Assembly: GCF_019973775.1 (NCBI RefSeq) | Contig: NZ_AP025032.1 | Coordinates: forward strand, 3,410,001-3,474,000 | Direction: 5' to 3' | DNA: 64,000 nt | Source: Aureimonas sp. SA4125 | GTDB taxonomy: Bacteria > Pseudomonadota > Alphaproteobacteria > Rhizobiales > Rhizobiaceae | Shown here: positions 37,664 through 58,983 of the stretch, in pieces | How positions within the stretch are numbered: position 1 is the first letter of the stretch | Layout: the number at the start of each line of letters is the position of its first letter | The notes under the pieces: generated by a model | What the model was told of the DNA's origin: nothing | Databases searched by the model: none | What the model saw: only the letters and a program-made list of their open reading frames with translations | Made by a program: the position numbers and the translations under genes

Positions 37664-38506
37664 TCAAACGGGGTGCGCTCCAGCCTCCAACTCGCCGACG
37701 AAGGCGAGCGAGGACGCCAGGGCCCGGCGCAACTGCGGCAGATCCAGGGGCTCCCGCCGACGGACCGGGTCGCACCGCCCGGGCCGTTCGAGGCGGAGAG
37801 GCAGCTCGATTCCGACCGGGCAATCCTTCGGGAGAACTTCCCAAACCGCGGCATAGTCGATGGCCCCCTCCCCGATCGACGTGAAGCGCCAGCCTTCTGT
37901 GGACGAGGCAATGTCCTTCACATGCACGTGCACGATCGCGCCGGAGTCGCCGGCAAGATCGTCCTCGGGCCGAATGGCCTCGCCGCTGTAGGTGACGACA
38001 TTGCCGATGTCGTAGTTCAGCCGCACGAAGGGCGAGCCGATCCGCGCGATGAGCGCGGACCCGGCAGCGCGACCGGGCAGGAGGTCGCCCGCACCGTGAC
38101 CTGGATTTTCAAGCGCAACCGTGATGCCAAGGGCCTCGCAATCGGGAAGCACGGCTTCGAGACAGTCGAGCACCGCGGCACGGCCACTGGCCGGTCCGGC
38201 ATTGCTGATCACGATGGGCGCGCCGATCTCGGCGGCGAACGCGATCCGCCGCCTCAGCATCGCCCGCGCGTCGGCACCGGACAGATCCATATGGGCCGAG
38301 ACCGCCTGTGCCCGGAGCCCGTTCGCCTCGATCATCCGGCGGAGCGTTCGGGCACTGTCCACCGCGAAGTCGCTCTCGTCGAAGTCGACATAGCCCTTGA
38401 TGAAGGCGGGTTCGACGGCATGGGCGCCGGCGCGGGCGATCTCGTCCATGGCCGTCGCCATGTCGTATCCGTCGAAGAGAGCGGTGGAGACCGACAGGGG
38501 ATGCAT
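37664..38506 (-). CDS. oiaC: 3-oxo-isoapionate decarboxylase-like TIM-barrel protein (OiaC)
   Basis: The 280-residue AP-endonuclease-2/xylose-isomerase-like TIM barrel has metal-site features HMDLSGADARAMLRRRIAFA, VALENPGHGAGDLLPG, VRLNYDIGNVVTYSGE and VHVHVKDIASSTEGWRFTSI with GEGAIDY. In D-apiose loci a member of this family, OiaC, decarboxylates 3-oxo-isoapionate to L-erythrulose. The assignment here rests on neighbours: ApnO lies 7 bp upstream and the RuBisCO-like OiaX is next, all in one leftward operon. A sugar epimerase role cannot be excluded by sequence alone. Confidence 0.68.
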   Translation of the reverse strand: MHPLSVSTALFDGYDMATAMDEIARAGAHAVEPAFIKGYVDFDESDFAVDSARTLRRMIEANGLRAQAVSAHMDLSGADARAMLRRRIAFAAEIGAPIVISNAGPASGRAAVLDCLEAVLPDCEALGITVALENPGHGAGDLLPGRAAGSALIARIGSPFVRLNYDIGNVVTYSGEAIRPEDDLAGDSGAIVHVHVKDIASSTEGWRFTSIGEGAIDYAAVWEVLPKDCPVGIELPLRLERPGRCDPVRRREPLDLPQLRRALASSLAFVGELEAGAHPV

Positions 38507-38513
38507 CGGGCGA

Positions 38514-39359
38514 TCAGGCGCCCTTGCCGTAGACGATCAACTCGGAGGCCTCCTTCACCTTCTGCGGCGATAGCGCCTCGCGCCAGTCCTCGCGTACGAC
38601 CACGCCCTTGGCAAAGCGCATCAGACGCAAGGCGGCATCTGACGGCACCTTCGGAGAAAAGCCGAACCACATGGCGATCTCCACATTGAGATGGCCGATC
38701 AGAAAGTCCATCGCCGCGCCGCGGGGGATGCCGTACTTCGCCACGCATTCCTCCACCGCCTCGACCATCGTATCGACGAACGGCATGGCGACCATTTCCG
38801 ACAGCCCGGGCTCGAGAATGGCGAGTTGCTCCAGCGTCACGCGATAGGCCTCGATGATCGGCGACCACATCGCCCGGCAGATCTCCTCCCCGAGCGCATA
38901 GTGCTCTTCCGGCCCCTGCATCAGGGCGCAGACGATCGACTGGCGCGCGATTCCGCCGTGATAGTCGCGGCGCGCGTCCCAGTCCGTCTCGTCGTTGAAC
39001 AGCGGCGGGTGGCATGGGTGGCCGACGAAATAGGTGAGGTCCGGCCGGTCGTCGGGCAGCGCGGCGGCATAGGGGGCGGCCGCGTCGAGGATCAGCACCA
39101 TGGTGCCGGCGCCGAGCATCGGCGAAAGCTGGCGCATCACGTCCCCGATGATGTTGTCGGGCAGCGCCAGAACGACGACCGACGCGCCGGCGACCCCCGC
39201 CTCCACCGAGATCGGCGCGATGCCGGCCTCGGCAAGCCGCGCCCGGCCGACGTCCCCGATCTCCACCGCACGCACGTCGTAACCGGCCTCGATCAGCTTC
39301 TTCGTGACGCGAAACCCCATCTTGCCGCCGGATCCCAGCACTGCCACCGGTTTCGTCAT
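38514..39359 (-). CDS. apnO: D-apionate oxidoisomerase (ApnO), copy 1
   Basis: The 281-residue NAD-dependent protein starts with a Rossmann motif AVLGSGGKMGFRVTKKLIEA and contains VVVLALPDNIIGDVMRQL, the conserved GHPCHPPLFNDETDWDARRD and ALMQGPEEHYALGEEICRAM. This fits the ApnO/phosphogluconate-dehydrogenase-like group. ApnO converts D-apionate to 3-oxo-isoapionate by coupled oxidation and rearrangement. A GGGAGGAC ribosome site precedes the ATG. It sits between oiaX and oiaC. A second, clearly related copy lies at 46342-47169. Confidence 0.78.
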   Translation of the reverse strand: MTKPVAVLGSGGKMGFRVTKKLIEAGYDVRAVEIGDVGRARLAEAGIAPISVEAGVAGASVVVLALPDNIIGDVMRQLSPMLGAGTMVLILDAAAPYAAALPDDRPDLTYFVGHPCHPPLFNDETDWDARRDYHGGIARQSIVCALMQGPEEHYALGEEICRAMWSPIIEAYRVTLEQLAILEPGLSEMVAMPFVDTMVEAVEECVAKYGIPRGAAMDFLIGHLNVEIAMWFGFSPKVPSDAALRLMRFAKGVVVREDWREALSPQKVKEASELIVYGKGA

Positions 39360-39395
39360 GTTCAGTCCTCCCTTTTGTTCTTGTCTGGCTGCCCG

Positions 39396-40658
39396 TCAGC
39401 CGAAGGTTTCCAGCGCCTGGGCAAGCGCCGGGTGATCGAGGGCGTATTGCTTGGCGGAAATGCCGGCCGCGGCCGCATCCCAAGCCTCCCGGACGCTGGC
39501 GACGCCGGCGGCGATGCCGCCCGGATGGGTGATGATGCCTCCGCCGCAGCAGTAGATCAGATCGTTCGATCCAAGCCTGCGATAGGTTTCGGCTGCCTGC
39601 ACCGCCGTCTGCGCGGAGGAGAAAACCGGCATGACGGTGTCAGGCCGCGCCGCATCCTCGAACATCGGTGTCAGGCAGGCGCGGGCCGAGGCGATGACGC
39701 TGTCGTCCTCCTCGCAGAACTTGTTGGAAAGCCCGTTGACATGGAGATGGTCGACGCCGATCAGGCGCCAGAACTTCTGGTACGCGACGTAGCTCATGCC
39801 CAACATCGGGGAGCGGCCATAGAGGCCCCACCCTGCGCGGTGGCCGTGTAGGGCGACGCCCGAGAGGCGCCGGACCTCTGCGACACCGGCAAGACCGACG
39901 GAGTTCAAGACAAGCATGGCGCATGTGCCGCCGCGCTTCTCGACGATGTCGAGCTGACGGCGCATGGCATCGATCTCGCCGGAAATATTGACCGCATACA
40001 TCGCCTTGCGGCCGGAACGGTCGGCATGGCGGTCGACCACCTGCATGACAGCCTCGAAACGCTCGGCGAACGGCGAATGCGGCGGGTCGCCCATCAGCTC
40101 GTCGTCTTTGATGAAGTCGAGCCCGGCTTCGATCAGGGTATCGACAAGTTCGGCGGTCGCCACCGGCGTCAGGCCTACGCTTGGCTTGACGATGGTGCCG
40201 ATGACCGGGCGGCCGAAAACGCCAGTCAGCGTGCGCGTCCCTTCCACTGCAAAAGCGGGACCGGGATAAGCCTGCGTGAAAACCTCGGGAAAGTGGATGT
40301 CGATGAGCTTCAGACCGGAAAAGTGGTGCAGCTCGAACAGGTTGCCGAGAACAGTCGACCAGACGGTGGGAAGGCTGATCCCGGTGTTGCCGACGGCCCA
40401 CGATATCTGGACCTCGGCCTGGCGGATCGGCATCCCAGGCGGCGACGGTGAACGAGCGCCGGGCAAAGAAGGGATCGCAACCTCACCAATCTCCCGGAGC
40501 GACTCGACCCTCGCACCGTACTGACGCAGCAGTTCCGGAGTTTCACCCGGCGTCGCCCGAAAGGTTCCGCTCGACTGTTCTCCGGCCAGAGCGGCAACGG
40601 CAACCTCCAGGGGATAGGCCGTCTCGACCAAGTAATGCGCGACAATCCGGTCCGACAA
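39396..40658 (-). CDS. oiaX: RuBisCO-like protein, 3-oxo-isoapionate-4-phosphate transcarboxylase/hydrolase (OiaX)
   Basis: The 420-residue protein is a form IV RuBisCO-like protein. The large-subunit core is evident: GTIVKPSVGLTPVATAELVD, the activator lysine region AGLDFIKDDELMGDPPHSPF (K-D-D-E metal site), GVALHGHRAGWGLYGRSPML (the HxHRA motif) and CCGGGIITHPGGIAAGV. In apiose catabolism OiaX cleaves 3-oxo-isoapionate 4-phosphate to glycolate and 3-phosphoglycerate. Loop 6 reads VDHLHVNGLSNKF, lacking the RuBisCO LGKLEG lysine, so it is not a CO2-fixing enzyme. Start is TTG at 40658 with GGGGAG upstream. Neighbouring apnO, oiaC and the distant oiaK support the role. Confidence 0.82.
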   Translation of the reverse strand: MSDRIVAHYLVETAYPLEVAVAALAGEQSSGTFRATPGETPELLRQYGARVESLREIGEVAIPSLPGARSPSPPGMPIRQAEVQISWAVGNTGISLPTVWSTVLGNLFELHHFSGLKLIDIHFPEVFTQAYPGPAFAVEGTRTLTGVFGRPVIGTIVKPSVGLTPVATAELVDTLIEAGLDFIKDDELMGDPPHSPFAERFEAVMQVVDRHADRSGRKAMYAVNISGEIDAMRRQLDIVEKRGGTCAMLVLNSVGLAGVAEVRRLSGVALHGHRAGWGLYGRSPMLGMSYVAYQKFWRLIGVDHLHVNGLSNKFCEEDDSVIASARACLTPMFEDAARPDTVMPVFSSAQTAVQAAETYRRLGSNDLIYCCGGGIITHPGGIAAGVASVREAWDAAAAGISAKQYALDHPALAQALETFG

Positions 40659-40706
40659 TGCGGTGACTCCCCAAAGATGACCAAGCGCGTAGCATCTTCA
40701 GTCAGT

Positions 40707-40722
40707 CATGTCATCATATGAG
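40707..40722. promoter_or_regulatory. Operator-like site upstream of oiaX
   Basis: CATGTCATCATATGAG contains ATGTCATCATAT, the exact reverse complement of ATATGATGACAT found upstream of gntR and the ABC transporter (41552-41563). The shared core has a TATG-N4-CATA-like symmetry. It lies about 50 bp before the oiaX start, between oiaX and the gntR stop. It probably binds the adjacent GntR regulator. Confidence 0.6.
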
Positions 40723-40731
40723 TTGGTGAAC

Positions 40732-41457
40732 TTAAACCGCCTTCGGAAACTCGCTGTCCCGCTGCAGCTGGACGTAGAGGCCGTTGGCCCGCGTAATATG
40801 CTCGGTCATGGCGGCGGACGCCGCTTCCGCGTCGCCATTGGCAATCGCCTTGTAGATCCGTTCGTGCTCCAGAATGGTGACCCGCTCAGCGCCGGGTACA
40901 GAGACCAGATCGCGCTTGAACCGGGACAGCCATTCCAAGATTCCCTTGGTCACCGCAGCTATCAGCGAATTGCCGCTCATCTCCGCGATAACGCCGTGAA
41001 AAGCCATGTCGGTGGCGACAAAGGCGGCATGATCGCCTCGCGCCTCGTGCAGAGCGCGAATGCATTCCTCCAGGCGCAGCAGGTCCTTCTCGGTGGCCTT
41101 GCGGGTGGCCATGCTCACCAGCGCCGACTCCAGTAAGAGCCGCGCCTCCTTGAGTTCTTCCATGCCGCGGACATTCGTTGCCAGCATCATGATCATCGCA
41201 CTCGAGATCTGGTCGACGATCACGTCCGGCGTCGGGTTGATCACGCGCGCCCGTTCACCGTGCGAGATGAGGATGAGGCCCTTCTGATGCAGCGACTGCA
41301 TCGCCTCGCGGATCGCAGGCCGGCCGACCCCGATCATTGCCATCAGCTCACGCTCGGAGGGCAGCTTCGAACCCGGCGGAAACTCGTTGGACGAGATCGC
41401 CCCAATCAGTCGATCAAGCACTTCCTGATAAAGCTTCCGCTTTCGCACCGGCTCCAT
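40732..41457 (-). CDS. GntR-family (FadR/FCD) transcriptional regulator
   Basis: The 241-residue regulator has an N-terminal winged helix (KLYQEVLDRLIGAISSNEFP then PGSKLPSERELMAMIGVGRP) and a C-terminal FCD ligand domain (MEELKEARLLLESALVSMAT; HEARGDHAAFVATDMAFHGV; ITRANGLYVQLQRDSEFP). FCD regulators respond to small organic acids or sugar acids. It is divergent from the sugar ABC importer and just upstream of the oiaX operon. Identical operator-like sites flank it on both sides, so it most likely represses both apiose units and itself. Confidence 0.88.
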   Translation of the reverse strand: MEPVRKRKLYQEVLDRLIGAISSNEFPPGSKLPSERELMAMIGVGRPAIREAMQSLHQKGLILISHGERARVINPTPDVIVDQISSAMIMMLATNVRGMEELKEARLLLESALVSMATRKATEKDLLRLEECIRALHEARGDHAAFVATDMAFHGVIAEMSGNSLIAAVTKGILEWLSRFKRDLVSVPGAERVTILEHERIYKAIANGDAEAASAAMTEHITRANGLYVQLQRDSEFPKAV

Positions 41458-41547
41458 GGCCTCATTCCAGTCTGAAACAGAGTGACAAGCACCGTCCCTA
41501 ACAAGTCCGCCCGAGGATCGCGACCCGCCGCGGCGACGCTTGACGAT

Positions 41548-41564
41548 ACTTATATGATGACATA
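41548..41564. promoter_or_regulatory. Operator-like site between gntR and the sugar ABC operon
   Basis: ACTTATATGATGACATA matches the inverted site upstream of oiaX at 15 of the 17 positions compared, including the 12-bp core ATATGATGACAT. It lies 90 bp from the gntR start and about 105 bp from the substrate-binding protein start, in the divergent promoter region. Confidence 0.6.
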
Positions 41565-41667: not shown

Positions 41668-42675
41668 ATGGCATTGAACAGGCGTGAATTCACCATTTCG
41701 ACGCTGATGGCACTCGCCGCCACCGGCGGGCTGACAGTCGCGGCACGGACACAGGGGACAAAAACCATCGCCGTGCTGTTTGACGGTCTCTATTCCGAGT
41801 TCTGGGTGGCCGGTATCGAGATTATCCGCGAGAACCTGAAAAACCGCGGCTTCGAGATCTTCGAGGCGATCTCGGATCAGGACGACAACAAGCAGTTTGA
41901 GCAGGTGCGCGCTGCCATCGCCCGCAAGGTCGACGGCATCATCATCGTGCAGACCGATTCCAACGCCGTCATTCCGGCGATCAAGGCCGCCAACGAGGCC
42001 AAAATCCCGATGGTTCACTTCAACCGCCCACCGGCGCCCTCGGAAGCTTTCTCGGTCGCGATCCAGGCGGACAACCAGAAGATCGCGCGGGAAACCGTCA
42101 CCTATGTCTGCGAGGTAGCGAAAGCCTCCGGCAAGAAGCATCAGGCGGCGATCATGATCGGCGACCTCGGGGATCCCAACGCGATCCAGCGCCGCGACGG
42201 CTTCCAGGAAGCGATCGACCAGTTCAAGGACTCGGTCGAACTCGTCGCCTCGATCCCGACCGAATGGAACGCCGACACAGCCTTTGCCGGCCTCACCAAC
42301 GCGCTGCAGGCCAACCCGGACATCTCGCTGTTGTTCACGTCATCGGACTTCCTCCTGCCGCAGATCACCCAGGCGCTGAAATCGGCCGACAAATGGGGCA
42401 AGATCGGCGAGGAGAACCACGTCATCCTCGCAGGCTTCGATGGCGCTGCGCCTGCCTACGCCCTAATGCACGAAAGCTACATGGATGCCTGCGGGGTGCA
42501 GAACCTATTCTACGAGGCCGAAATCGCCATTCAGGCGATCGTCGACCTTCAGGACGGCAAGAAGGTGGAGAAGCTGCTCCTCGACCCCGGCTTTGCCATC
42601 ACCCAGGCGAACATGAAGGAAAAGCAGGCCGAGATGTGGGGCTACGTCCTGTGGGCGAAGGACAACCCACAGTAA
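41668..42675 (+). CDS. Sugar ABC transporter substrate-binding protein
   Basis: The 335-residue periplasmic protein of the peripla_BP_4 (ribose-like) family has a Tat-like signal (NRREFTISTLMALAATGG) and the motifs FDGLYSEFWVAGIEIIRENL, VDGIIIVQTDSNAVIPAIKA and IPMVHFNRPP. A GGGGAGGAC ribosome site precedes the ATG, which favours this start over in-frame codons back to 41482. It is the first gene of a rightward operon with two permeases, an ATPase and apionate enzymes. D-apiose or a related branched sugar is the likely ligand, by context. Confidence 0.85.
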   Translation: MALNRREFTISTLMALAATGGLTVAARTQGTKTIAVLFDGLYSEFWVAGIEIIRENLKNRGFEIFEAISDQDDNKQFEQVRAAIARKVDGIIIVQTDSNAVIPAIKAANEAKIPMVHFNRPPAPSEAFSVAIQADNQKIARETVTYVCEVAKASGKKHQAAIMIGDLGDPNAIQRRDGFQEAIDQFKDSVELVASIPTEWNADTAFAGLTNALQANPDISLLFTSSDFLLPQITQALKSADKWGKIGEENHVILAGFDGAAPAYALMHESYMDACGVQNLFYEAEIAIQAIVDLQDGKKVEKLLLDPGFAITQANMKEKQAEMWGYVLWAKDNPQ

Positions 42676-42763: not shown

Positions 42764-43798
42764 ATGACGGCCGTTCCTCCAGCCGACATCAACCAGCGAC
42801 CGTCGGGTGCCGGCAGCCTCGGCCTGTTGCGGCTGGTGCTGTCGGAATATTTCGTCCTTGTCCTCTGCGTTGTATATCTCGCGGCAATCTACCCTTTCGT
42901 ACCGGAAATGCTGTCGCTGGAAGTGGCGTCGAACATTCTCGGGGACATGATGCCGTTGCTCGTCGTGGCGATCGGCCAGACCTTCGTCCTGATCATTGCC
43001 GGCATCGACCTCTCGGTGACAGCGATCATTTCCTTTGCCGCCGTCGTCGGGGCCTCGGTGATGACCGGCTCGGGCGGCTATCTCGAAGGCAGCAATCTCG
43101 CTGTGCCCGGCGCGGTTCTGGCGATGCTCGCCGCCGGCCTCTTCATCGGCCTCGTCAACGGTCTGTCGGTGACGCGGTTGAACATGCCGTCCTTCATCGT
43201 CACGCTGGCGACGCGGATGTTTTTCGCCGGCGCGGCGATATGGTACGTCACCTTCCACTCGCCCTCCTCCTCCATCGCAAACCTGCCAACGGGCTTCACC
43301 GACTTTTCCACGACATCGATGGGCGGAATCCCGTTGACGGTGATCGTCGCCACGGCGATCGGCCTTGCCGCGCACTTCCTTCTGTCGCGCACTGAATTCG
43401 GACGCTGGATCTACGCCGTCGGCGCCAATCCGCAGGCGGCGCGGATTTCCGGCATTCCGGTCTCTCGTACCATCCTGATGGCCTTTCTGATCAGCGGTGG
43501 CTGCGCCGCGATCGGGTCGATGATGTATGTGGCGCGGATGCAGACGGGATCGCCGATCCTTGGCGAGAACATCCTGCTCGACGTCATCGGCGCGGTGGTG
43601 ATCGGCGGCACCAGCCTGTTCGGCGGCAAAGGCAAGATCGTCTGGACGGTATTCGGCGTCCTGTTCCTGATGCTGATCGACACCTCGATGAAAATGCTGG
43701 GGTCGTCGCTCTTCACCATTTTTATCATCAAAGGCAGCGTCATCCTTCTGGCCGCGACGGTGGACACGCTCCGCCACCGCTACTTCGGACGGGGCTGA
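42764..43798 (+). CDS. Sugar ABC transporter permease
   Basis: The 344-residue RbsC/AraH-type membrane protein contains GQTFVLIIAGIDLSVTAIIS, RLNMPSFIVTLATRMFFAGA, WIYAVGANPQAARISGIPVS and VVIGGTSLFGGKGKIVWTVF. It is the first of two permeases around the ATPase gene. The ATG at 42764 has TTTGGAG upstream. The start of the ATPase gene follows within 3 bp. Confidence 0.88.
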   Translation: MTAVPPADINQRPSGAGSLGLLRLVLSEYFVLVLCVVYLAAIYPFVPEMLSLEVASNILGDMMPLLVVAIGQTFVLIIAGIDLSVTAIISFAAVVGASVMTGSGGYLEGSNLAVPGAVLAMLAAGLFIGLVNGLSVTRLNMPSFIVTLATRMFFAGAAIWYVTFHSPSSSIANLPTGFTDFSTTSMGGIPLTVIVATAIGLAAHFLLSRTEFGRWIYAVGANPQAARISGIPVSRTILMAFLISGGCAAIGSMMYVARMQTGSPILGENILLDVIGAVVIGGTSLFGGKGKIVWTVFGVLFLMLIDTSMKMLGSSLFTIFIIKGSVILLAATVDTLRHRYFGRG

Positions 43799-43800
43799 CC

Positions 43801-45333
43801 GTGGCCGCTCCCCTGATCGAGATCGACGGCCTGACCAAGAGCTTCTTCGGCGTGAGGGTGCTGCACGGAGTTGGCCTGACACTGCAGCGGGGCCAGGTGC
43901 TCGGCCTCGTCGGAGAGAACGGCTCCGGCAAGTCGACGACGATGAACATCCTTGGCGGCGTCCACCAGCCGGATGCCGGCACGATGCGGCTGGACGGCAA
44001 GCCCTACGCGCCAGTGGCGCCGGAGGCAGCGATCCGTGCCGGCATTGCCTTCATTCACCAGGAACTGAACCTCTTTCCCAACCTCACGATCGAAGAAAAT
44101 CTCTTCGTCGATGCCTTCCCCCGCCGCAGCCGGCTGTTGCCGTTCATCGATCGGGCAGAGATCCGGGCACGGACGACGGAGTTGCTGCGCGAGGTCGATC
44201 TCGAATTGAAGCCCTCGACGCCGGTGTCGCGGCTCAGCCAGGGCGAGCGGCAACTGGTCGAGATTGCCAAGGCTCTGTCGCGCAAAGCGCGGATCATCAT
44301 CTTCGACGAGCCGACGACCTCCCTGACCAGGCCAGAAGTAACCCGGCTTTTCGCGATCATCGCGAGGCTGAAGGATCGCGGCATCGGCATCATTTACATC
44401 AGCCACGCCCTGGAAGACGTGATGGCGGTGTGTGACAGCATCACCATCCTGCGCGATGGAGTCGTTGCCGGTGCAGGTCCCCGCACGGAGATGACGGTCT
44501 CGCGCGTCGTCTCCATGATGGTTGGCCGCTCGATCGACACGATCTTTCCCGCCCGCACCGCCAGTCCGGGCCGCCCGCCCGTGCTGCAGATCGATCGCCT
44601 CAGTCAGCCTGGCGTCGCGCACGAAATAACGCTTGTTGTTCATGCCGGCGAGATACTTGGCCTTGCCGGCCTGATGGGCTCGGGCCGGTCCGAACTCGCC
44701 CGAATGATCTTCGGTCTCGACCGCTTCGCCACCGGCACGATCCGCATCGATGAAGCGATGCTGAAAAGGCCGACCCCTGGTGCAGCAATGGATGCCGGCA
44801 TTGCCTTTCTCACCGAGGACCGGCGCGGCGAAGGGCTGCTGATGGATTTCAGCATCGCCGACAACGTCGTGCTCGCCTCGCTGCGCGACTTCGCCGGCGC
44901 GTTCGGTGTACTCGACAATGGCCGGATCGAACGCGAGGCGGCGGCGACCGGGCGCGCGGTGCACCTGTCGACCACGCGGGTCGCCGAGACCAAGGTGAAG
45001 CACCTCTCGGGGGGCAACCAGCAGAAGGTGGTGATCGGCAAGTGGCTGCGTCGCGAGCCGAGGCTCTTCATTCTCGACGAGCCGACTCGCGGCATCGACG
45101 TCGGCGCCAAGCAGGAGGTCTACCGCATCATCAACGGACTGACCGAGCGCGGCAGCGCAGTGCTGTTGATCTCCTCCGAGATCGAGGAACTGATCGGACT
45201 GTCCGACCGCATCCTCACCATCCATCGCGGCGAACTGACAGGCGAATTTGCCCGCGAGAGTTTTGACCGTGAGGTCATCATGACGGCGGCCACCGGCACC
45301 ACTTCCGTTCCAAGGGAGCTCGTCGCTCGATGA
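43801..45333 (+). CDS. Sugar ABC transporter ATPase (double nucleotide-binding domain)
   Basis: The 510-residue RbsA-like ATPase has Walker A GENGSGKST in the first domain and a modified GLMGSGRSEL in the second, with the signature RLSQGERQLVEIAKALS in the first and LSGGNQQKVVIGKWLR in the second, plus Walker B IFDEPTTSLT and ILDEPTRGIDVG. It starts with GTG directly after the upstream permease. It is the only ATPase in the 40-56 kb region, so it may also serve the two extra permeases at 51455-53426. Confidence 0.9.
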   Translation: MAAPLIEIDGLTKSFFGVRVLHGVGLTLQRGQVLGLVGENGSGKSTTMNILGGVHQPDAGTMRLDGKPYAPVAPEAAIRAGIAFIHQELNLFPNLTIEENLFVDAFPRRSRLLPFIDRAEIRARTTELLREVDLELKPSTPVSRLSQGERQLVEIAKALSRKARIIIFDEPTTSLTRPEVTRLFAIIARLKDRGIGIIYISHALEDVMAVCDSITILRDGVVAGAGPRTEMTVSRVVSMMVGRSIDTIFPARTASPGRPPVLQIDRLSQPGVAHEITLVVHAGEILGLAGLMGSGRSELARMIFGLDRFATGTIRIDEAMLKRPTPGAAMDAGIAFLTEDRRGEGLLMDFSIADNVVLASLRDFAGAFGVLDNGRIEREAAATGRAVHLSTTRVAETKVKHLSGGNQQKVVIGKWLRREPRLFILDEPTRGIDVGAKQEVYRIINGLTERGSAVLLISSEIEELIGLSDRILTIHRGELTGEFARESFDREVIMTAATGTTSVPRELVAR

Positions 45334-46310
45334 AGATTGGCAGCCGCGTCCTCCTCACCATCCTGCAGAACGCCCCTTACCTCTTGTTCGCCGTGCTGCT
45401 CCTGACCTTCGGGCTGATGTCTGACCGGTTCCTGGCCATCGCCAACTTCCGCAACATCATCATTCAGGCGGCGCCGATTGCCATTCTCGCCATCGGCATG
45501 ACCTTCGTGCTCCTGACCGCCGAGATCGACCTTTCGATCGGCGCCAGCATGTACCTGACGGCCAGCATTCTGGCACTGTACCTGCCCGATGTGGCCTGGC
45601 CGGTCGGCTTCCTGGCGGTGCTGCTGCTGGCTGCGCTGATCGGGGCGGTGAACGGGCTGATCGTCACCCGGCTGGGGGTCGCCTCCTTCATTGTCACGTT
45701 GTCGACGCTGTTCATCCTGCGTGGCATTGCAATGTTCCTGTCGAACACCCGCACGCTGATGTTCCCGGATTCGATCACCACGCTGAACCGGGCAAGTGTC
45801 TTCGGCATCCCCTCGGCGATCGTCATCTTCCTCCTCGTCTTCGCCATCGCCGCGGTCATCCTCCACCAGACGCCGTTCGGCCGGCAGGTCTATGCCGTCG
45901 GCGGCGATCCCGATGCGGCGCGAAAGGCAGGCCTGCCGGTGCAGCGCATCAAGCTGATGTGCTTCGTGCTGGCGGGTGCCTGCGCTGGCATTGGCGGCTT
46001 CGTCTCGATCACCCAGATCGGCGCGGCCGGCCCGAAATACGGCGACGGCATCGAGTTCGCGGCGATCGCCGCCTCGGTGCTCGGCGGTGTCTCGCTGTTC
46101 GGCGGCCGCGGCAGCGTCGCCGGCACGGTGTTCGGCGCGATCCTGATCAAGACCGTCCAGAACGGCCTCAACGTCATCAATGCCGACCCGTATGTCTACC
46201 CGCTGGTAACGGCTGCGATCATCTTCCTCGCGGTGGCGATCGACGGCATCCGCACCCGCATCATCGAGCGTCTGGAGCGGCGGACGATCCGTCCGCTCGA
46301 AGTCGTGTGA
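45330..46310 (+). CDS. Sugar ABC transporter permease
   Basis: The 326-residue RbsC-type permease has GMTFVLLTAEIDLSIGASMY, RLGVASFIVTLSTLFILRGI, QVYAVGGDPDAARKAGLPVQ and SVLGGVSLFGGRGSVAGTVF. It overlaps the ATPase stop by 4 bp (ATGA). With the 42764 permease it probably forms a heterodimeric channel. Confidence 0.88.
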   Translation: MKIGSRVLLTILQNAPYLLFAVLLLTFGLMSDRFLAIANFRNIIIQAAPIAILAIGMTFVLLTAEIDLSIGASMYLTASILALYLPDVAWPVGFLAVLLLAALIGAVNGLIVTRLGVASFIVTLSTLFILRGIAMFLSNTRTLMFPDSITTLNRASVFGIPSAIVIFLLVFAIAAVILHQTPFGRQVYAVGGDPDAARKAGLPVQRIKLMCFVLAGACAGIGGFVSITQIGAAGPKYGDGIEFAAIAASVLGGVSLFGGRGSVAGTVFGAILIKTVQNGLNVINADPYVYPLVTAAIIFLAVAIDGIRTRIIERLERRTIRPLEVV

Positions 46311-46341: not shown

Positions 46342-47169
46342 ATGACCACAATCGCTCTCGTCGGTGCTGGCGGCAAGATGGGTTACCGTCTGGCCGGGAA
46401 GCTCAAGGAGTCGCGGTTCACTACCCGCTATGTCGAGGTAAGCGAGGCCGGTCGCGAGCGCCTGAAGACGGGTCTCGGGATCGACTGTAGCTCAGTCGAG
46501 GAGGCGGTCGCGGGAGCCGAAGTGGTGGTGCTGGCGGTGCCCGACACGGCGATCGGCAAGGTCGCCGCCGACATCGAACCGAGTCTCAGGCCGGGCACCC
46601 TCATCGTCGTGCTGGATGCCGCAGCGCCCTTCGCCGGCCACCTCCCCAACCGACCCGACCTCACCTACTTCGTCACCCATCCCTGCCATCCGCCGATCTT
46701 CAATGATGAGACCGACATCGAGGCAAAGCGCGACTTCTTCGGTGGCGTTGCGGCCAAGCAGCACATCGTCTCCTCGCTGATGCAGGGACCGGAGGAACAC
46801 TATGCTCTCGGCGAGGAGGTGGCGCAGATCATCTGGGCGCCGGTGATGCGCTCGCACCGGATCAGCGTCGAGCAGATGGCGCTGCTTGAGCCGGGCCTGT
46901 CGGAAACCGTCTGCGCCAGTCTCCTCGACGTGATGCGCGAGGCGATGGACGAGGTGGTGCGGCGGGGCGTGCCGCGGGAAGCGGCACGCGATTTCCTGCT
47001 CGGCCACATGAACGTCTTGGGCGCGGTGATTTTCGAGGAGACGCCGGGCGTGTTTTCCGACGCCTGCAACAAGGCGATCGAGTTCGGCAAGCCGATGCTG
47101 ATGCGCGACGACTGGAAGCGGGTATTCGAGCCGCAGGAACTCGCCGCCTCCATCCGGCGGATCACTTGA
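46342..47169 (+). CDS. D-apionate oxidoisomerase-like protein (ApnO paralogue), copy 2
   Basis: The 275-residue protein has the same architecture as the ApnO at 38514-39359: Rossmann motif ALVGAGGKMGYRLAGKLKES, VVLAVPDTAIGKVAADIEPS, the block HPCHPPIFNDETDIEAKRDF and LMQGPEEHYALGEEVAQIIW. By eye the two are clearly homologous but diverged. It lies directly before a Gfo/Idh/MocA dehydrogenase and apnL in the rightward operon. Two such enzymes in one locus could act on different aldonates or stereoisomers. Confidence 0.72.
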   Translation: MTTIALVGAGGKMGYRLAGKLKESRFTTRYVEVSEAGRERLKTGLGIDCSSVEEAVAGAEVVVLAVPDTAIGKVAADIEPSLRPGTLIVVLDAAAPFAGHLPNRPDLTYFVTHPCHPPIFNDETDIEAKRDFFGGVAAKQHIVSSLMQGPEEHYALGEEVAQIIWAPVMRSHRISVEQMALLEPGLSETVCASLLDVMREAMDEVVRRGVPREAARDFLLGHMNVLGAVIFEETPGVFSDACNKAIEFGKPMLMRDDWKRVFEPQELAASIRRIT

Positions 47170-48224: not shown

Positions 48225-50134
48225 TCGCCGGCCGCGCCACCCTGCTGTTTGGAACAGAGGAGGTGCCGCCGCCGATGCGACTGCTGCGCGCCGGCCCTCT
48301 GTCGGCCGAACTCGTCGGCGGCAATCTCGCGAAGATCCGATGGGGCGAGAGCGAAATCCTGCGCGCAATCGCCTTCCTCGTCCGTGACGAGAACTGGGGC
48401 AATTGCCCCGTGGAGATCGACACCCTCTCCGTCGAGGAGACGGCGGAACGCTTCACCGTATCCTATCGAGCTGTCTTTCGCGCGCCGGACGGGGCCGAGC
48501 TGCGATGCGACGCGTCGATCGAGGGAACCCCATCAGCCGGCCTCGTCTTCGAGGTTGTCGCGACGCCGACCGCGGCTTTCGCCACCAATCGCTGCGGGTT
48601 CTGCGTCCTGCATCCGGTCCTCGGCCTTTCCGGCACCCCTGTCCGGATCGAGCACACCGACGGCGTCATCCAGACCGCTGCGCTGCCGGAGCTGATCGCG
48701 CCGGCGCAGCCGTTCAAGGATATCCGCGCCATCAGCCATGCCGTCGCGCCGGGCGTCACGGCCACCTGCCGGATGGAGGGTGACGCCTTCGAGATGGAGG
48801 ACCAGCGCGCCTGGACCGATGCCTCCTACAAGACCTACGTCCGGCCGCTGGCTCTGCCGTGGCCTTACACCCTTCCACCAGGCGTCCCTGAGCGCCAACG
48901 GGTGGCGCTGACGATCGAGGGCGGGCGCGGTGCCGTGGCAGCCGAACCTCGGCCGACAGCGGTGACGGTCACGCTTGGCGAGGCAGCCGGCGTTGTGCCG
49001 GATTTCGGACTGGGCATTGCGCCGGAGGATATCGCGGCGACGCTCGGGGCGATCGACGCGCTGCGCTTCGTCCGCCCGCAGCGTCTCGTCCTCCATTTCG
49101 ATCCGCGCGCGGGGCACGGCCGCGAGGCCCTTGCGGGATTTGCGGCAATTCTTGCCGCCTGCCCCGCCAAGGCGACGCTCGAATGCGTCGTGCCGTGCGT
49201 CAGGGATCCGGCGGTGGAACTGCGCGAGATCGCGAACCTCGTCGACGAAACGGGCCTATCGCTGACCGACATCATGGTCAGTCCGGCACCCGACCTGAAG
49301 TCGACACCGCCCGGCAGCCGCTGGCCCGATTGCCCGCCGCTCGAGACCGTCTACACCGCAGCCCGCGCTGCCTTTCCCGACCTGCCGATTGGCGGCGGCA
49401 TGATCAGCAGCTTCACGGAACTCAACCGCAAACGGCCGCCGGCCGGTCTGCTCGACGTCGTCAGTCACACCACGGCGGCGATCGTTCATGCCGCGGATGA
49501 CCGCAGCGTGATGGAGACGCTGCAAAGCCTTCCCTTCGTCACCCGCTCCGTTCGCGCAATGATCGGGCGGGCGCGCTACCGCATCGGGCCGGCAGCCATC
49601 GGCATGCGCGACAACCCTTACGGCCCGTCCCTCTCCCCCAATCCCGGCGGCGCGCGGATCACCATGACCGATGCGGATCCGCGCCAGCGCGGTCTCTTCG
49701 CCGCCGCGTGGATGATCGGCTATGCTGCAGCGGTCGCCGACGCCGGTCTCGACGCGCTGACGCTCGGCGCCTTCGCCGGACCTTTCGGACTCGTCGATCC
49801 GGATGGCCGGAGGCGCCCCGCCATCCACGCGGCGCGGATGCTCGGCCAGTTGGCCGGACAGGCGGCGCGCCCGGCGAGATCAAGCGAGCCGGCAGCGGTT
49901 CTGGCCGTCTGCGGCGGCGATACCGTGCTCGTGGCCAACCTCACCGGGGAGCGCCAGGCTTGCCGCCTCCCCGGACTCGTCGCGATCGAGCGGCTGGACG
50001 AAGCGGCGCTGTCGCCGCTCCTCGACGGCGAACCGCTGCCGGTCGAACGGGGACCGGTCGAACGGGGAGCAGCCGACGGCTTCGAGCTCGGCGCTTTTGC
50101 CATCGCCATCGCGACGGTCGGGGCCACGCGATGA
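48221..50134 (+). CDS. apnL: D-apionate lactonase (ApnL)
   Basis: The 637-residue protein matches the ApnL family, which hydrolyses D-apionolactone to D-apionate. Recognisable parts are GNLAKIRWGESEILRAIAFL, the RCGFCVLHPVLGLSGTPVRI and IEHTDGVIQTAALPELIAPA stretches, ALPELIAPAQPFKDIRAISH, and FEMEDQRAWTDASYKTYVRP, followed by a C-terminal glycosidase-like TIM-barrel half. It overlaps its upstream dehydrogenase and its downstream kinase by 4 bp each, so lactone formation, hydrolysis and phosphorylation genes are translationally coupled. Confidence 0.8.
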   Translation: MIAGRATLLFGTEEVPPPMRLLRAGPLSAELVGGNLAKIRWGESEILRAIAFLVRDENWGNCPVEIDTLSVEETAERFTVSYRAVFRAPDGAELRCDASIEGTPSAGLVFEVVATPTAAFATNRCGFCVLHPVLGLSGTPVRIEHTDGVIQTAALPELIAPAQPFKDIRAISHAVAPGVTATCRMEGDAFEMEDQRAWTDASYKTYVRPLALPWPYTLPPGVPERQRVALTIEGGRGAVAAEPRPTAVTVTLGEAAGVVPDFGLGIAPEDIAATLGAIDALRFVRPQRLVLHFDPRAGHGREALAGFAAILAACPAKATLECVVPCVRDPAVELREIANLVDETGLSLTDIMVSPAPDLKSTPPGSRWPDCPPLETVYTAARAAFPDLPIGGGMISSFTELNRKRPPAGLLDVVSHTTAAIVHAADDRSVMETLQSLPFVTRSVRAMIGRARYRIGPAAIGMRDNPYGPSLSPNPGGARITMTDADPRQRGLFAAAWMIGYAAAVADAGLDALTLGAFAGPFGLVDPDGRRRPAIHAARMLGQLAGQAARPARSSEPAAVLAVCGGDTVLVANLTGERQACRLPGLVAIERLDEAALSPLLDGEPLPVERGPVERGAADGFELGAFAIAIATVGATR

Positions 50135-51438
50135 CTTCTCCCCTCCTCCTGTCCTACTACGGCGACGACCTGACCGGCTCGACCGACGTCATGGAGGCGA
50201 TGGAACTCCACGGCATCGAGACGGTCCTGTTCATGGACCTGCCGACGTCGGCGCAACGCGAGCGCTTCTCGACCTGCCGCGTCGTCGGGCTGGCCGGCAC
50301 GAGCCGCAGCCAGACGCCGGACTGGATGGACGCGCACCTGCCGGCGGCTTTCCACTGGCTGCGCGAGATCGGCGCGCCGATCTGCCATTACAAGGTCTGC
50401 TCCACCTTCGATTCCGCGCCCGGCATCGGCAGCATCGGCCGCGCGATCGACATCGGTGCGGCGGTATTCGGCCAGGAGGCGACACTCCTGGTGGTCGGTG
50501 CGCCGGAGCTCAAGCGCTACACCGCGTTCGGCGAGCTCTTCGCCGGCTTTCGCGGCGTCAATTATCGCATCGACCGGCATCCCGTCATGCGCCAGCATCC
50601 GGTGACGCCAATGGACGAGGCGGATCTGACGCGCCATCTCGGCCGCCAGACCGACAAGCGCATCGGCCTTGTCGATCTCGTCGCCTTGAAGCGTGCCGAT
50701 GGCGCCGACGCGATCGAAGCGGCCATCGCCGAGAGCGCCGTGGTGATGCTCGACGTGCTCGACACCGAAACGCAGGCGGCGGTTGGTGGCCACCTCTGGC
50801 GGCTGCGCGACCGCATGCCTTTCGTCGCCGGATCGTCGGGAGTCGAGTATGCGCTGGTCGCCCCGGAATCTGGAACCCCGCTCGCGGGGGCGCGCTTGCA
50901 TTTCCCGCCTCCAGGCGCGCGCGGCGCCATCGCCGCCGTCTCGGGCAGCGTCTCCCCGACAACCGAGCGCCAGATCGCCCATGCCTGCGAGCACGGCTTT
51001 GGCGCCGTCGCGCTCGACCCTCTGGCCCTTACCGGAGGCTCGGCGGCCGCCGCGATCGCCGCCGCGGTGGAGGCCGGTTCACGGGTGCTCGAGGAAAGAC
51101 GAAGCGTCGTTCTCTACACGGCCACGGGATCGCGCGATGTCGCGGCGGCAGCGATCGATGGGCACCGCCTGGGCGCGGCACTCGGCACGATCCTCCACAG
51201 CCTGGTGCGGCGGCACGGCCTTCGGCGCGCCTGCGTTTCCGGCGGCGACACGTCCAGCCACGCCATCCGCGCCCTCGGGCTCTACGCCCTCCAATGCGTC
51301 TACCCGCTGCCGAACTCGCCAGGATCGCCCCTATGCCGTGGCTTCAGCGAGGATGCGGCCATCGACGGGCTGGAGATCGCCTTCAAGGGCGGCCAGGTCG
51401 GCACCGATTCTTATTTCTGCCAGGTCCGCGACGGCTAG
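50131..51438 (+). CDS. oiaK: 3-oxo-isoapionate kinase (OiaK, four-carbon acid sugar kinase family)
   Basis: The 435-residue product belongs to the DUF1537/four-carbon-acid-sugar kinase family. The N-terminal substrate domain begins LLLSYYGDDLTGSTDVMEAM, with the conserved D-D-x-T-G-x-x-D motif, and the C-terminal nucleotide domain has RACVSGGDTSSHAIRALGLY and the GLEIAFKGGQVGTDSYF ending. In apiose catabolism OiaK phosphorylates 3-oxo-isoapionate to feed OiaX. It directly follows apnL. The combination with oiaX, apnO and apnL makes this reading stronger than the other family functions (threonate, erythronate). Confidence 0.8.
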   Translation: MTSPLLLSYYGDDLTGSTDVMEAMELHGIETVLFMDLPTSAQRERFSTCRVVGLAGTSRSQTPDWMDAHLPAAFHWLREIGAPICHYKVCSTFDSAPGIGSIGRAIDIGAAVFGQEATLLVVGAPELKRYTAFGELFAGFRGVNYRIDRHPVMRQHPVTPMDEADLTRHLGRQTDKRIGLVDLVALKRADGADAIEAAIAESAVVMLDVLDTETQAAVGGHLWRLRDRMPFVAGSSGVEYALVAPESGTPLAGARLHFPPPGARGAIAAVSGSVSPTTERQIAHACEHGFGAVALDPLALTGGSAAAAIAAAVEAGSRVLEERRSVVLYTATGSRDVAAAAIDGHRLGAALGTILHSLVRRHGLRRACVSGGDTSSHAIRALGLYALQCVYPLPNSPGSPLCRGFSEDAAIDGLEIAFKGGQVGTDSYFCQVRDG

Positions 51439-51454: not shown

Positions 51455-52480
51455 GTGAAGAGCCTTACGGGGCCTGACATCTCGGAGGAAGCGATCGTCT
51501 CCGCCTCGTTCGAAGTCCTTTCGGAAGATAAGGGCGAGAGCCCGTCGGTCAGGCGCAGCGCCCTCAACGTGCTTTTCCGCGCCATCCCCTTCGTCAGCCT
51601 TGTCCTCGTCTTTTCGGTCATGGCCGGTATCAACCCGCGCGTCGCATCGAGTTTCGGGCTGGAACTGCTGCTCGCGCAGGCGGTGACGCTGGTGCTCGTG
51701 GCCCTCGCCCAGATGTTCGTGGTCGGCGGATCGGAGATCGATCTCGGCGTCGGGGCCTTTGCCGGCCTCGTCAACGTCGTCAGCTCGACCTTGCTGGTCA
51801 CAACGCCGGCCTTCGGACTGCTCGCGCTCGTCGCCGGTCTCCTTGGCTACGTCGTCATCGGCCTGCTGATCCAGGCACGCGCCATCCCCGCCATCGTCGT
51901 GACGCTCGGCACCTCGTTCATTTTCGCCGGCATCGGCCAGACGCTGCAACCCTCGCCGGGCGGCGCCAGTCCCGAATGGCTGAGCAGTCTCTATGCGCTT
52001 GCCGTTCCCGGCATTCCGACGCCGCTTCTCCTGATCGGCCTTGCGACCGCTGTCGCCGTGGCGATCGACAGATCACCGACCGGGACCATCCTGCGTGCCT
52101 TCGGCAGTGCACCTTTGGCGCTCACCCGCAGCGGCTGGTCGCCGGTCCGCTACGCCGTCCTGCGCTACGTCATCGCCGGCGCTTTCGCGACCGCCGCCGG
52201 CCTATTCCTCACGGCCAGCAACGGCGCCAGCGACATCAATGCCGGCTCCTCCCTCACCCTGCTCGCCATCGCCGCGGTGGTGATCGGCGGCTGTCAGCTC
52301 GTCGGCGGAACGATCTCCCCCCTAGGGATGGTCGCGGGCGCGGTGACGCTGTCGCTGATCGGTGCGCTTCTGGCGTCGCTCGGCGTCAGCACCGATTTCA
52401 ACGCCGCGGTTCAAGGCGGCCTGCTGATCGCCATGCTCAGCCTGCAGACGCTGGCCGCCTGGAGCCGCCGCCGTGCGTGA
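51455..52480 (+). CDS. Sugar ABC transporter permease (extra copy, GTG start)
   Basis: The 341-residue RbsC-like permease has an N-terminal cytoplasmic extension, then QMFVVGGSEIDLGVGAFAGL, ARAIPAIVVTLGTSFIFAGI, ILRAFGSAPLALTRSGWSPV and AVVIGGCQLVGGTISPLGMV. The GTG at 51455 follows GCGGAAGGG. It overlaps a second permease by 8 bp. Neither an ATPase nor a binding protein is adjacent, so the pair must use partners encoded elsewhere, perhaps the ATPase at 43801. Confidence 0.83.
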   Translation: MKSLTGPDISEEAIVSASFEVLSEDKGESPSVRRSALNVLFRAIPFVSLVLVFSVMAGINPRVASSFGLELLLAQAVTLVLVALAQMFVVGGSEIDLGVGAFAGLVNVVSSTLLVTTPAFGLLALVAGLLGYVVIGLLIQARAIPAIVVTLGTSFIFAGIGQTLQPSPGGASPEWLSSLYALAVPGIPTPLLLIGLATAVAVAIDRSPTGTILRAFGSAPLALTRSGWSPVRYAVLRYVIAGAFATAAGLFLTASNGASDINAGSSLTLLAIAAVVIGGCQLVGGTISPLGMVAGAVTLSLIGALLASLGVSTDFNAAVQGGLLIAMLSLQTLAAWSRRRA

Positions 52481-53426
52481 GGCGATCGGAACGCTCACCC
52501 GGCGGCGGCGCTGGATATGGCCGCTTCTCGGCATCCTTCTGCTCTGGGCGGCGCTGGTGGTGTTGACCGACCGTTTCAGCGTCTACAGCCTGTCCGGCGT
52601 CGCGACGTCCGCTGCCTTTCTGCTGTTGCCGGCGCTTGGGCAGATGCTGGTGATCACCACGGGGCGCGGCAATATCGACCTGTCCCTGCCGAGTGTCGTG
52701 ACGCTCAGTGCCTATCTGACGATCGCCGTATCGGGCGGTCGCGACGCTGGCGTGCTGCCGGCATTTGCGGCGGTGCTGGCCTGTGGCCTTGTCGTCGGCA
52801 CCTGCAATGCGCTGACGGTGCTGGTGCTGCGGATCCCGGCGATGATCGCCACCCTGGCCAGCGGATACATTCTCGCCACCGCGACGCTCGTCCTCAACGG
52901 CGTGATCCGGGCCGCCGGATCAGCCCCAAGTCTCGTATCTGCTACCAGCGGCCGACTGGGCCCGTTGCCCTACATCGCGATCGGCGCCGTTCTGGTCGCA
53001 GCGGCCTGCGCCGTCATGCTGTCGTTCAGCAGTTGGGGGCGAAAGCTTGCCGCCGTCGGACAAAACCCGGAGGCCGCGAGGCTGTCGGGCATCAAGACAC
53101 GGCGCGTCGATGCCTCTGCCTTCATCGCCAGTTCCATTCTCGCAAGCCTGACAGGCTTCCTCCTGTCCGGTTATGCCGGCGACGCGTTCTTGGAAATGGG
53201 AGCGCCCTATCTGCTGCAGTCCGTCGGGGCGGTCGTTCTGGGTGGCACGCTGATTTCCGGCGGCGCCGCGACGACCCTTGGAACCGCCATGGGCGCGTTC
53301 CTGCTGGTGATGATCGTCACCACGATGCAGATCGCGGGCCTGCCGGTACAGGATATCCTGCAGGGCACAGCCATCATCGCTGTCCTGAGCCTTGCAGGCA
53401 ACCGCACGCAACTGAGAGGGCGGTGA
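52473..53426 (+). CDS. Sugar ABC transporter permease (extra copy, GTG start)
   Basis: The 317-residue membrane protein of the same family contains GQMLVITTGRGNIDLSLPSV (an N instead of the usual hydrophobic before IDLS), RIPAMIATLASGYILATATL, KLAAVGQNPEAARLSGIKTR and VGAVVLGGTLISGGAATTLG. It starts at a GTG overlapping the stop of the preceding permease and ends the rightward apionate operon. Confidence 0.83.
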   Translation: MREAIGTLTRRRRWIWPLLGILLLWAALVVLTDRFSVYSLSGVATSAAFLLLPALGQMLVITTGRGNIDLSLPSVVTLSAYLTIAVSGGRDAGVLPAFAAVLACGLVVGTCNALTVLVLRIPAMIATLASGYILATATLVLNGVIRAAGSAPSLVSATSGRLGPLPYIAIGAVLVAAACAVMLSFSSWGRKLAAVGQNPEAARLSGIKTRRVDASAFIASSILASLTGFLLSGYAGDAFLEMGAPYLLQSVGAVVLGGTLISGGAATTLGTAMGAFLLVMIVTTMQIAGLPVQDILQGTAIIAVLSLAGNRTQLRGR

Positions 53427-54676: not shown

Positions 54677-54717
54677 TTCACAATGCCTCCGCATTTCCCG
54701 CACTTTCGGTAGAATCC

Positions 54718-56498: not shown

Positions 56499-56583
56499 CG
56501 GATCGGTTATGAGGTGGCGCGGCGTCCAGCAGCTGTGCGCTGCGCCGGCAGCTTGGCGGAGCCGCGATCGGAGAGAGAGGCGC

Positions 56584-57771: not shown

Positions 57772-57940
57772 AGCGGAACGGCCATTCTTCGAACTGCTCC
57801 GCTCCGTTTCTCTGTTCCGCTTGACCTTTCTCGAAGTCGGCATTGAGCTTTCAAGATCATGCTCCAGCGGCACCGAAGCGTTTTGCCCTGGTTTGTCATG
57901 CCCGCGACCGCTGCGTTGGAGATTTTTGCGGGCAGTTCCC
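57772..57940. repeat. Palindromic intergenic element
   Basis: The 169-bp gap between convergent genes contains several interleaved inverted stretches (AGCGGAAC and GTTCCGCT, GGAGC and GCTCC). It shares the short motif GATCATGCTC with the dispersed repeat at 59510-59612. It looks like an intergenic mosaic repeat and may end both transcripts. I cannot see a second full copy in this window. Confidence 0.4.
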
Positions 57941-58983
57941 TCAGGCCTGGTCGGCGGCAACCGCGACCTTTTCCCCTGAACGGCCAGCCTCGATCAGCGC
58001 GTCGATCAAGCGATGCACCTTCAACGCCTCGCGTCCTGAAATGCGCGGCGGGCGTTTCTCGTCCAGTGCATTGAGGAAGTCGGCGATGGCGCTGCGATGC
58101 CAGTCATGGGGGAAATCCATCGGGTTGGCGCCGGTGCCAGCGGCGGTCTCGACCGGCGCGACCCGCTCCGTGTGCCCGTCATGGAAGGTCACGTCGAGGC
58201 CGGTACCGGCCAGCACGGCGGTTCCGTTTCGGCAGATAACCTCGATACGCTCGGCAAAGCCTGGATAAGCGGCCGTCGTGGCGTCGACCGTGCCAAGGGC
58301 GCCGTTTTCGAAGCGGATGCCGGCGGCGACCATGTCCTCGGTTTCCATGGCATGCAGCGGACTGGTGGTGGCGAAACCGCGAACCTCTGCCGCGCGGCCG
58401 GCGAGGCTGAGCATCAGGTCGAGCGTGTGGATGCCTTGGGTGAGGAGTACGCCGCCGCCGTCGCGCGCCAGGCTACCCCGGCCGGGTTCATCGTAGTATT
58501 TCTGGGGGCGCCACAGGCGAATAACGGTCGAGCAGCCGGCGATTTCGCCATTTCGCCGCCGGCCAGCATCCGGGCGAGCGCTTCGCCGGCAGGGCGGAAG
58601 CGATGCTGCAACACGATGCCGAGCGTGATGGCCGCCGCCTCACAGGCCTCGACCAGCCGCGTGGCGCGTTCGGTCGTGATTTCGACTGGCTTTTCAAGGA
58701 GCACGTTCTTGCCGGCCGCAGCGCAGCGACTGACGATGTCGAGATGTGTGTTGGGCGGCGTCAGCACGATGACGCTGTCGACGCTGGGATCCTCAAGGAT
58801 GGTCTCGAGCCGTTCGCAAGTCGGGAACGGGAACCTTGCCGCGAAGGCCTCGCGCCGAGCCGCTGTCGGGCTGTAAGCGTAAGCCAGTTCGACGCGGTCG
58901 GCGAGGTCGATGACGCTGCGGGCATGGGCGCCCACCACCATGCCGAGCCCGACGAGTGCGACCCGTCTTTTCTGGACTGTCAA
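57941..58983 (-). pseudogene. Gfo/Idh/MocA-family oxidoreductase, frameshifted
   Basis: Read leftward from a TTG at 58983 (strong GGGGAGGAGAGGAA upstream), the first part is a normal Rossmann domain: RVALVGLGMVVGAHARSVID, then VIVLTPPNTHLDIVSRCAAA and NVLLEKPVEITTERATRLVE. At 58542-58557 the frame breaks in an 8-bp tandem duplication. Removing one copy restores a continuous protein of about 344 residues through AGGEIAGCSTVIRLWRPQKY and VLLTQGIHTLDLMLSLAGRA into the intact C-terminal domain. The gene is therefore either freshly inactivated, slippage-regulated, or a sequencing error. Position near the TRAP/AGE genes suggests a sugar dehydrogenase. Confidence 0.85.
58542..58557. repeat. 8-bp tandem duplication causing a frameshift
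   Basis: ATTTCGCC occurs twice in direct succession on the plus strand (58542-58549 and 58550-58557; GGCGAAAT twice on the coding strand). Because 8 is not a multiple of three, the second copy shifts the reading frame of the oxidoreductase gene. One copy gives the in-frame sequence GGEIAG. Confidence 0.9.

Follow-up and report, generated by a model that had tools for sequence, protein, structure and literature searches.

Organization of the locus

The window analysed here is a stretch of 64,000 nt of Aureimonas sp. SA4125 (NZ_AP025032.1, 3,410,001-3,474,000; coordinates below are window positions), and it carries a predicted D-apiose/D-apionate catabolic cluster that extends from 37664 to 53426 and includes a RuBisCO-like protein (RLP). 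Open reading frames (ORFs) were scanned with NCBIfam and Pfam hidden Markov models (HMMs), and the curated NCBIfam cut-offs were applied. The families that an earlier note on this DNA had named (an RLP, two ApnO-type proteins, a TIM barrel, ApnL, an OiaK-type kinase, a GntR/FCD regulator, and ABC and TRAP importers) are all present by HMM, and the best E-values of the intact genes lie between 5e-20, for a permease, and 6e-233, for ApnL. The features of the cluster are:

37664..38506, minus strand: PF01261 TIM barrel with a ketose-3-epimerase-like fold, candidate OiaC or epimerase/isomerase
38514..39359, minus strand: ApnO1, ApnO-family oxidoisomerase of a second subtype (PF16896; 410 bits to PDB 3c24)
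39396..40658, minus strand: RLP of a separate Rhizobiales clade, likely OiaT-type and not OiaX (PF00016/PF02788)
40732..41457, minus strand: GntR/FCD regulator, starting with MEPVRKRK
41668..42675, plus strand: CUT2 sugar-binding protein, its start (MALNRREF) picked by eye in a listed ORF that begins at 41482
42764..43798, plus strand: CUT2 permease, by HMM
43801..45333, plus strand: CUT2 ATPase, by HMM
45330..46310, plus strand: CUT2 permease, by HMM
46342..47169, plus strand: ApnO2, oxidoisomerase of the ApnO family and of the type usual in apiose clusters (PF16896; 441 bits to PDB 5t57)
47181..48224, plus strand: Gfo/Idh/MocA dehydrogenase, ApsD-like (462 bits to PDB 5uhw)
48221..50134, plus strand: ApnL, D-apionate lactonase (over the NF049900 cut-off)
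50131..51438, plus strand: OiaK-type DUF1537 kinase, predicted 3-oxo-isoapionate kinase (PF07005/PF17042)
51455..52480, plus strand: permease of a second CUT2 transporter, with no ATPase or binding protein adjacent
52473..53426, plus strand: second permease of this incomplete CUT2 transporter

The four minus-strand genes, from the TIM barrel to the regulator, diverge from the plus-strand importer operon, in which all neighbours from the first CUT2 permease through the last overlap or lie at most 31 bp apart, an operon-like arrangement. This gene order is also kept in Shinella and Sinorhizobium. ApnL passes its model with 774.7 bits (NF049900, cut-off 750), and ApnO1 reaches 278 bits with PDB 5t57, below its score with 3c24. 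We take 5uhw and 5t57 to be, respectively, the apiose dehydrogenase and the ApnO of Carter 2018.

For comparison, a contig search matched at least 548 relatives, from which the best 80 named loci were kept; with plasmid and panel loci they made up 128 stretches. In 12 of these (L098-L108 and L119; one gene of L102 is cut by the stretch end) the RLP passes the OiaX model, and nine of the 12 have homologues of ApnO2, ApsD, ApnL and OiaK grouped together, the exceptions being L104 and L105, which are without one or more of the genes within the stretch, and L108, with the RLP only. Because ApnL is over its cut-off, ApsD-like and ApnO2 matches are present and their homologues are grouped in those nine stretches, we read the locus from its sequence as an oxidative apiose/apionate catabolic cluster, with ApsD-like entry followed by ApnL, ApnO and OiaK. 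This much agrees with the earlier note.

Placement of the RuBisCO-like protein and the kinase

The earlier note had assigned the RLP to an OiaK/OiaX branch. OiaX (NF042437) is indeed its best NCBIfam model, but the score is 431.9 bits against a cut-off of 700. With the same library, the OiaX control L005 obtained 782.3 bits, four window-clade or OiaT-side RLPs 436-458 and an RLP of a third group 388, and the OiaX rows as a whole 730-800. Eleven genomes among 60 relatives exceeded the OiaX cut-off (730.6-783.4 bits), the next match being at 437.4, and so did 59 in a family panel of 297 genomes, where the gap between 453.8 and 730.6 bits was empty. Four of the five congeners in the panel (G001, G003, G004 and G005) have an OiaX and the fifth (G002, 65% complete) none. 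The genome of strain SA4125 itself yielded two NF042437 matches, the window RLP and the protein L002, neither of them over the OiaX cut-off. The cut-offs of models of the DK-MTP-1-P enolase MtnW (NF007095, 145.7 bits, cut-off 409; TIGR03332, 111.5 bits, cut-off 513.6) and of RuBisCO forms I-III (TIGR03326, 224 bits, cut-off 497; NF003252, 214 bits, cut-off 438) were not reached by the window RLP either, and K177 of RuBisCO is replaced in it by S. As to L002 (G000:C1:446881-447867), its sequence, with K177 and the catalytic residues present, suggests a true RuBisCO large subunit.

Phylogenetic analysis separated the window RLP from OiaX. In a tree of 107 rows (L027, L038, L054, L061, L064, L079 and L085 were left out), the former belonged to a clade of eight (SH-aLRT 100, stem 0.38) and 11 OiaX rows formed a clade of their own (100). 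The window clade was sister (SH-aLRT 87) to a 68-row group containing seven proteins that JGI names "3-oxoisoapionate-4-phosphate transcarboxylase/hydrolase" (OiaT); in the homologue list of an Ancylobacter RLP, this name is borne by seven of 120 entries. A FastTree of 161 rows, from which ten OiaX rows and those under 350 aa were omitted, recovered the window clade with all of its 17 rows (support 100), and in a bootstrapped tree of 68 rows of our own selection the OiaX and window clades each obtained 100/100. When OiaX and the window clade were forced together in this last tree, the cost was 38.7 log units and the approximately unbiased (AU) test rejected the union (p-AU 0.00027). The named members of the window clade belong to Mesorhizobium, Sinorhizobium, Shinella, Chelativorans, Aureimonas and Mongoliimonas. 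The RLP is therefore in another clade than OiaX, which the earlier note had named as an outcome against its reading, yet it is not a DK-MTP-enolase.

The active-site residues were numbered from motifs with the RuBisCO L002 as reference, on the RuBisCO residue numbers and roles that we assume. E60, N123, K175, K201, D203, E204, H294, R295, H327, K334, S379, G403 and G404 are kept in L002, in 17/17 window-clade rows (where P0028 and L117 are one protein) and in 7/7 JGI-OiaT rows. The OiaX rows (32/32) present D60, G123, Q327 and C or G379. At position 177 the window clade has S and OiaX has A or S; of the 117 other RLP rows, among which a few are repeats (L110/L014, L111/L015, L113/L016 and L168/L144), 13 have N there. 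In RuBisCO, the CO2-holding site is shaped by N123, E60 and K334; an RLP that retains them would be suited to carboxyl transfer, and their loss would suit plain decarboxylation. Positions 60, 123, 327 and 379 provide a simple test that tells the decarboxylase OiaX from RLPs with a RuBisCO-type site.

Could the window RLP be a diverged OiaX, a plain decarboxylase? Its best model, the resemblance of the rest of the cluster to the OiaX clusters of the congeners and the position of its OiaK with OiaX-side kinases would speak for this, but the 432 bits against the 700 needed, the p-AU of the joint clade and the four positions that differ in every OiaX row make it very improbable. On the NF042437 score, the tree with its AU test and the active-site residues, we reject the assignment to OiaX. 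The RLP is a probable member of an OiaT-type sister clade.

The RLPs with N177 are L078, L135, L114-L116, L177 and L179-L185. In L114 and L115 the RLP adjoins a divergent DUF1537 kinase, a LacI-type regulator (read by eye) and a TRAP binding protein, with no ApnL, and these K177N loci possibly correspond to another sugar-acid pathway.

The kinase ORF (50131-51438) obtained 453.6 bits with NF042436, short of the cut-off of 700, as was an Ancylobacter kinase that adjoins an RLP (546.5 bits). By FastTree it belongs to a clade of seven (100) nested in a 28-row set that includes the 10 OiaX-side kinases (99), and five distant DUF1537 kinases fall apart from that set. Its score with OxoTetrKin is 173.7 bits (cut-off 350). 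The kinase stands apart from threonate-type kinases; a grouping with these would have counted against the earlier note.

Predicted pathway and gene context in relatives

From gene presence, families, clades, residues and co-occurrence, which are our direct results, we infer all the reactions that follow. D-apiose would be taken up via the CUT2 importer and oxidised to apionolactone by the ApsD-like dehydrogenase, and ApnL would open the lactone ring. ApnO2, and probably ApnO1, would oxidise and rearrange the product to 3-oxo-isoapionate, to be phosphorylated by OiaK. Acting as OiaT, the RLP would move the carboxylate via a RuBisCO-like enediolate, and the product would be cleaved to 3-phosphoglycerate and glycolate, a step with no loss of CO2. 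As for the TIM barrel, it may play an accessory part, working on what ApnO produces or on a closely related compound, by OiaC-like decarboxylation or by epimerisation. The reaction details and the gene names ApsD, OiaT and OiaC are those of general background. The oxidation of glycolate would fall to a glcDEF-like operon outside the locus: a glcD-like gene (532.4 bits, cut-off 567.9) adjoins a glcE-like match, and together with an ORF that looks, by eye, like glcF they could handle this compound. We give a probability of roughly 0.55 to the reading that the locus degrades D-apiose with the RLP as an OiaT-type transcarboxylase/hydrolase. The last step of the pathway would then differ within the genus Aureimonas, since four of five congeners have OiaX instead.

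Several observations weigh against this reading. The 117 other RLP rows also keep the residues at positions 60, 123, 327 and 379 (three rows have gaps at the C-terminal positions and one has A379), and the K177N RLPs, a third group with a different gene context, retain the same four; because of this, the residues rule out OiaX but do not establish OiaT. In trees where the JGI-named proteins represent OiaT, the window RLP comes out as sister of their group and stands outside it (stem 0.38). Among the homologues of the window RLP, 120 of which were listed, none bears the name OiaT. Where it does occur it is a JGI label and not an assay, and six of the seven proteins bearing it are near-identical, so that they count as about two independent witnesses. 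The kinase, for its part, groups with OiaX-side kinases. Finally, the RLP adjoins OiaK in none of the nine window-clade loci, and genomes G108, G112 and G183 hold an OiaX plus a window-type RLP, which makes it odd that both RLPs should have the same substrate.

These last two points fit an alternative in which the RLP, ApnO1 and the TIM barrel form a module apart that degrades a different branched sugar acid, such as hamamelonate or a relative of apionate, with a substrate of its own for the RLP and with OiaK borrowed. RLP and OiaK lie within 300 bp of each other in 82 of 89 loci that are neither OiaX nor window-clade (L128 is counted without adjacency owing to the stretch start; OiaK adjoins the RLP in G271), in 10/12 OiaX loci and in 5/5 K177N loci. 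In the window-clade loci, the RLP is within 300 bp of ApnO1 in seven of nine, with the TIM barrel in nine of nine; TIM and ApnO1 are both absent from all 12 OiaX stretches. Moreover, in G108 the trio occurs alone with a GntR regulator and an ABC transporter, the full OiaX cluster being on another contig, and PMC8914248 describes a hamamelose cluster of Ochrobactrum that contains an RLP. Against this alternative, ApnO1 is the sole ApnO at E<=1e-60 in G230 and G271 (the G271 match contains one TGA), where it lies beside ApsD-like and ApnL-like genes (ApnL 360 and 387 bits, under the cut-off) and an OiaT-type RLP (L127 and L128), with OiaK also present. As the sole ApnO in such a setting, ApnO1 seems able to serve the normal apiose pathway. 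In addition, six of the nine window-clade loci contain ApnL within the fetched stretch. We consider the separate module quite unlikely.

Returning to the OiaT-type reading, OiaK is present in all 10 genomes with ApnO1, and the Ancylobacter (Xanthobacteraceae) loci with the OiaT-side type of RLP carry OiaK, ApnO and ApnL in 4/4 cases. The arrangement of the locus recurs in Shinella pollutisoli (L018, cut inside OiaK) and on plasmid pA of Sinorhizobium meliloti LMB1 (L117). The ApnO1 of L117 has 82.9% identity; on plasmid NC_003078.1 of S. meliloti 1021, the match listed reaches only 50.9%.

The TIM barrel

In the family panel, the TIM barrel adjoins ApnO1 in 10 of the 10 genomes that bear the latter. 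The earlier note had called it OiaC-like and had placed both downstream branches at this locus. The PF01261 fold holds, and the OiaC-like label is one that this fold suggests; the OiaC branch is a candidate. No OiaC-named protein appeared among 120 listed of 390 TIM homologues, in a comparison set without a characterised OiaC or an OiaC model. Still, the strict pairing with an ApnO, the maker of the beta-keto acid, keeps the idea alive that the protein may be an OiaC, converting 3-oxo-isoapionate to L-erythrulose beside the kinase/RLP (OiaT) branch. Metal-type residues (E133, D166, H195 and E234) and three arginines (R238, R241 and R249) are conserved in 30/30 aligned sequences. Distant kin (28-41% identity) lie beside DhaK/DhaL kinases in L191, L192 and L195, as expected of an enzyme yielding a ketose, and the genome of SA4125 has one DhaK-like gene (376.7 bits, cut-off 406) whose neighbour, judged by eye, is a DhaL. 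On the other side, the solved structures closest in fold are ketose 3-epimerases and isomerases, which fit an epimerase equally, the distant kin in L191-L195 have no annotated ApnL or ApnO neighbours, and the DhaK-like gene is outside the locus. Two branches at one locus are possible, if on balance doubtful.

It would be unlikely, too, that the trio is an uncharacterised catabolic unit, with an RLP of its own substrate or reaction, its own oxidoisomerase and a TIM barrel for the decarboxylation or epimerisation of the beta-keto acid. If this were true, two related branched sugar acids would be treated by different RLP chemistries at a single locus and, in the three genomes that also have OiaX, in a single cell. 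The use of a further related branched sugar acid, which the earlier note had proposed, is possible.

As to the distant kin, on the plasmids L191, L192 and L194 (Rhizobium gallicum, Shinella and Sphaerotilus) they occur with TRAP genes. The clusters of L191 and L192 include DhaK/DhaL, those of L192 and L194 a split transketolase, and that of L191 a threonate-dehydrogenase-like gene (273 bits, cut-off 350). One TIM homologue (G188:C5:8608-9426) has an in-frame TAG within the match. Searches of a limited literature collection listed no study on this small TIM-barrel family, which we flag as the strict partner of one ApnO type.

Transporters and flanking modules

The permease pair at 51455-53426 starts 16 bp after OiaK and has neither an ATPase nor a binding protein adjacent. 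In its L117 counterpart, an ATPase lies upstream of the permease in one frame of 861 aa, with about 1.1 kb more separating the permease from OiaK. The window has a further ATPase and permease of CUT2 type at 3931-6529, which share about 31-34% identity with this L117 frame.

The earlier note had described a single region up to 58983. The part to 53426 stands, and 53631-58983 is another module outside the apiose locus, composed of a TRAP importer, an AGE-family epimerase and a split Gfo/Idh gene. The nearest relatives of its TRAP binding protein are those of Sulfitobacter (4nx1/4ovp), and the 128 fetched stretches contained no AGE, no Gfo N-part and no DctP of this kind at 40% identity or more. 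Of the unusually many transporters that had been noted, the right-hand TRAP importer is in the other module and one ABC transporter is incomplete. Likewise, of the Gfo/Idh/MocA dehydrogenases claimed, the ApsD-like one is intact and the second (57941-58983) is split over two frames, apparently by a frameshift or a sequencing error. Further right, the minus strand at 59610-63971 carries a hydantoinase/carbamoylase-family amidase, an amidohydrolase, a carbon-nitrogen hydrolase and an ABC ATPase, a nitrogen-compound module. To the left of the locus, a TRAP transporter followed by an amidase (32589-37208) is a separate module.

Comparison with known systems

Carter et al. in 2018 reportedly described D-apiose pathways, among them the OiaK/OiaT branch of X. 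autotrophicus. The window locus resembles this branch in its ApsD-like, ApnL, ApnO and OiaK genes and in a non-OiaX RLP with RuBisCO-type residues, but its RLP forms a separate sister clade, lies away from OiaK and is accompanied by a TIM barrel and a second ApnO. The review PMC6302742 attributes transcarboxylation/hydrolysis to the X. autotrophicus RLP. With the OiaK/OiaX branch (NF042437) of the four congeners the locus shares homologous, clustered ApnL, ApsD, ApnO2, OiaK and GntR genes, and it differs in the clade, score and residues 60, 123, 327 and 379 of the RLP, which is not beside OiaK. Here nature offers a case of congeners whose RLPs differ at one and the same step of a pathway, and what a RuBisCO-like scaffold needs for carboxyl transfer becomes testable by comparing close relatives. 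The automatic names "ribulose-bisphosphate carboxylase large chain" and "sugar phosphate isomerase/epimerase" mask such distinctions among RLPs and TIM barrels.

PMC8914248 reports mutants in rlp for both Rhizobium etli and R. phaseoli, and cites the Ochrobactrum RLP of the D-hamamelose pathway (Kim et al. 2018). There, as proposed here, an RLP ends the route of a branched sugar acid and is tied to 3-phosphoglycerate and glycolate; unlike that pathway, compared here by description and not by sequence, the window has an ApnL over its cut-off and an apiose-type dehydrogenase. The TIM barrel shows 12-22% identity to UlaE, D-tagatose 3-epimerase and Art22, and has an Arg-rich C-terminal signature of its own. 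Set beside these systems, the pathway is of a known kind, and what is new is the clade of the RLP and the genes that accompany it.

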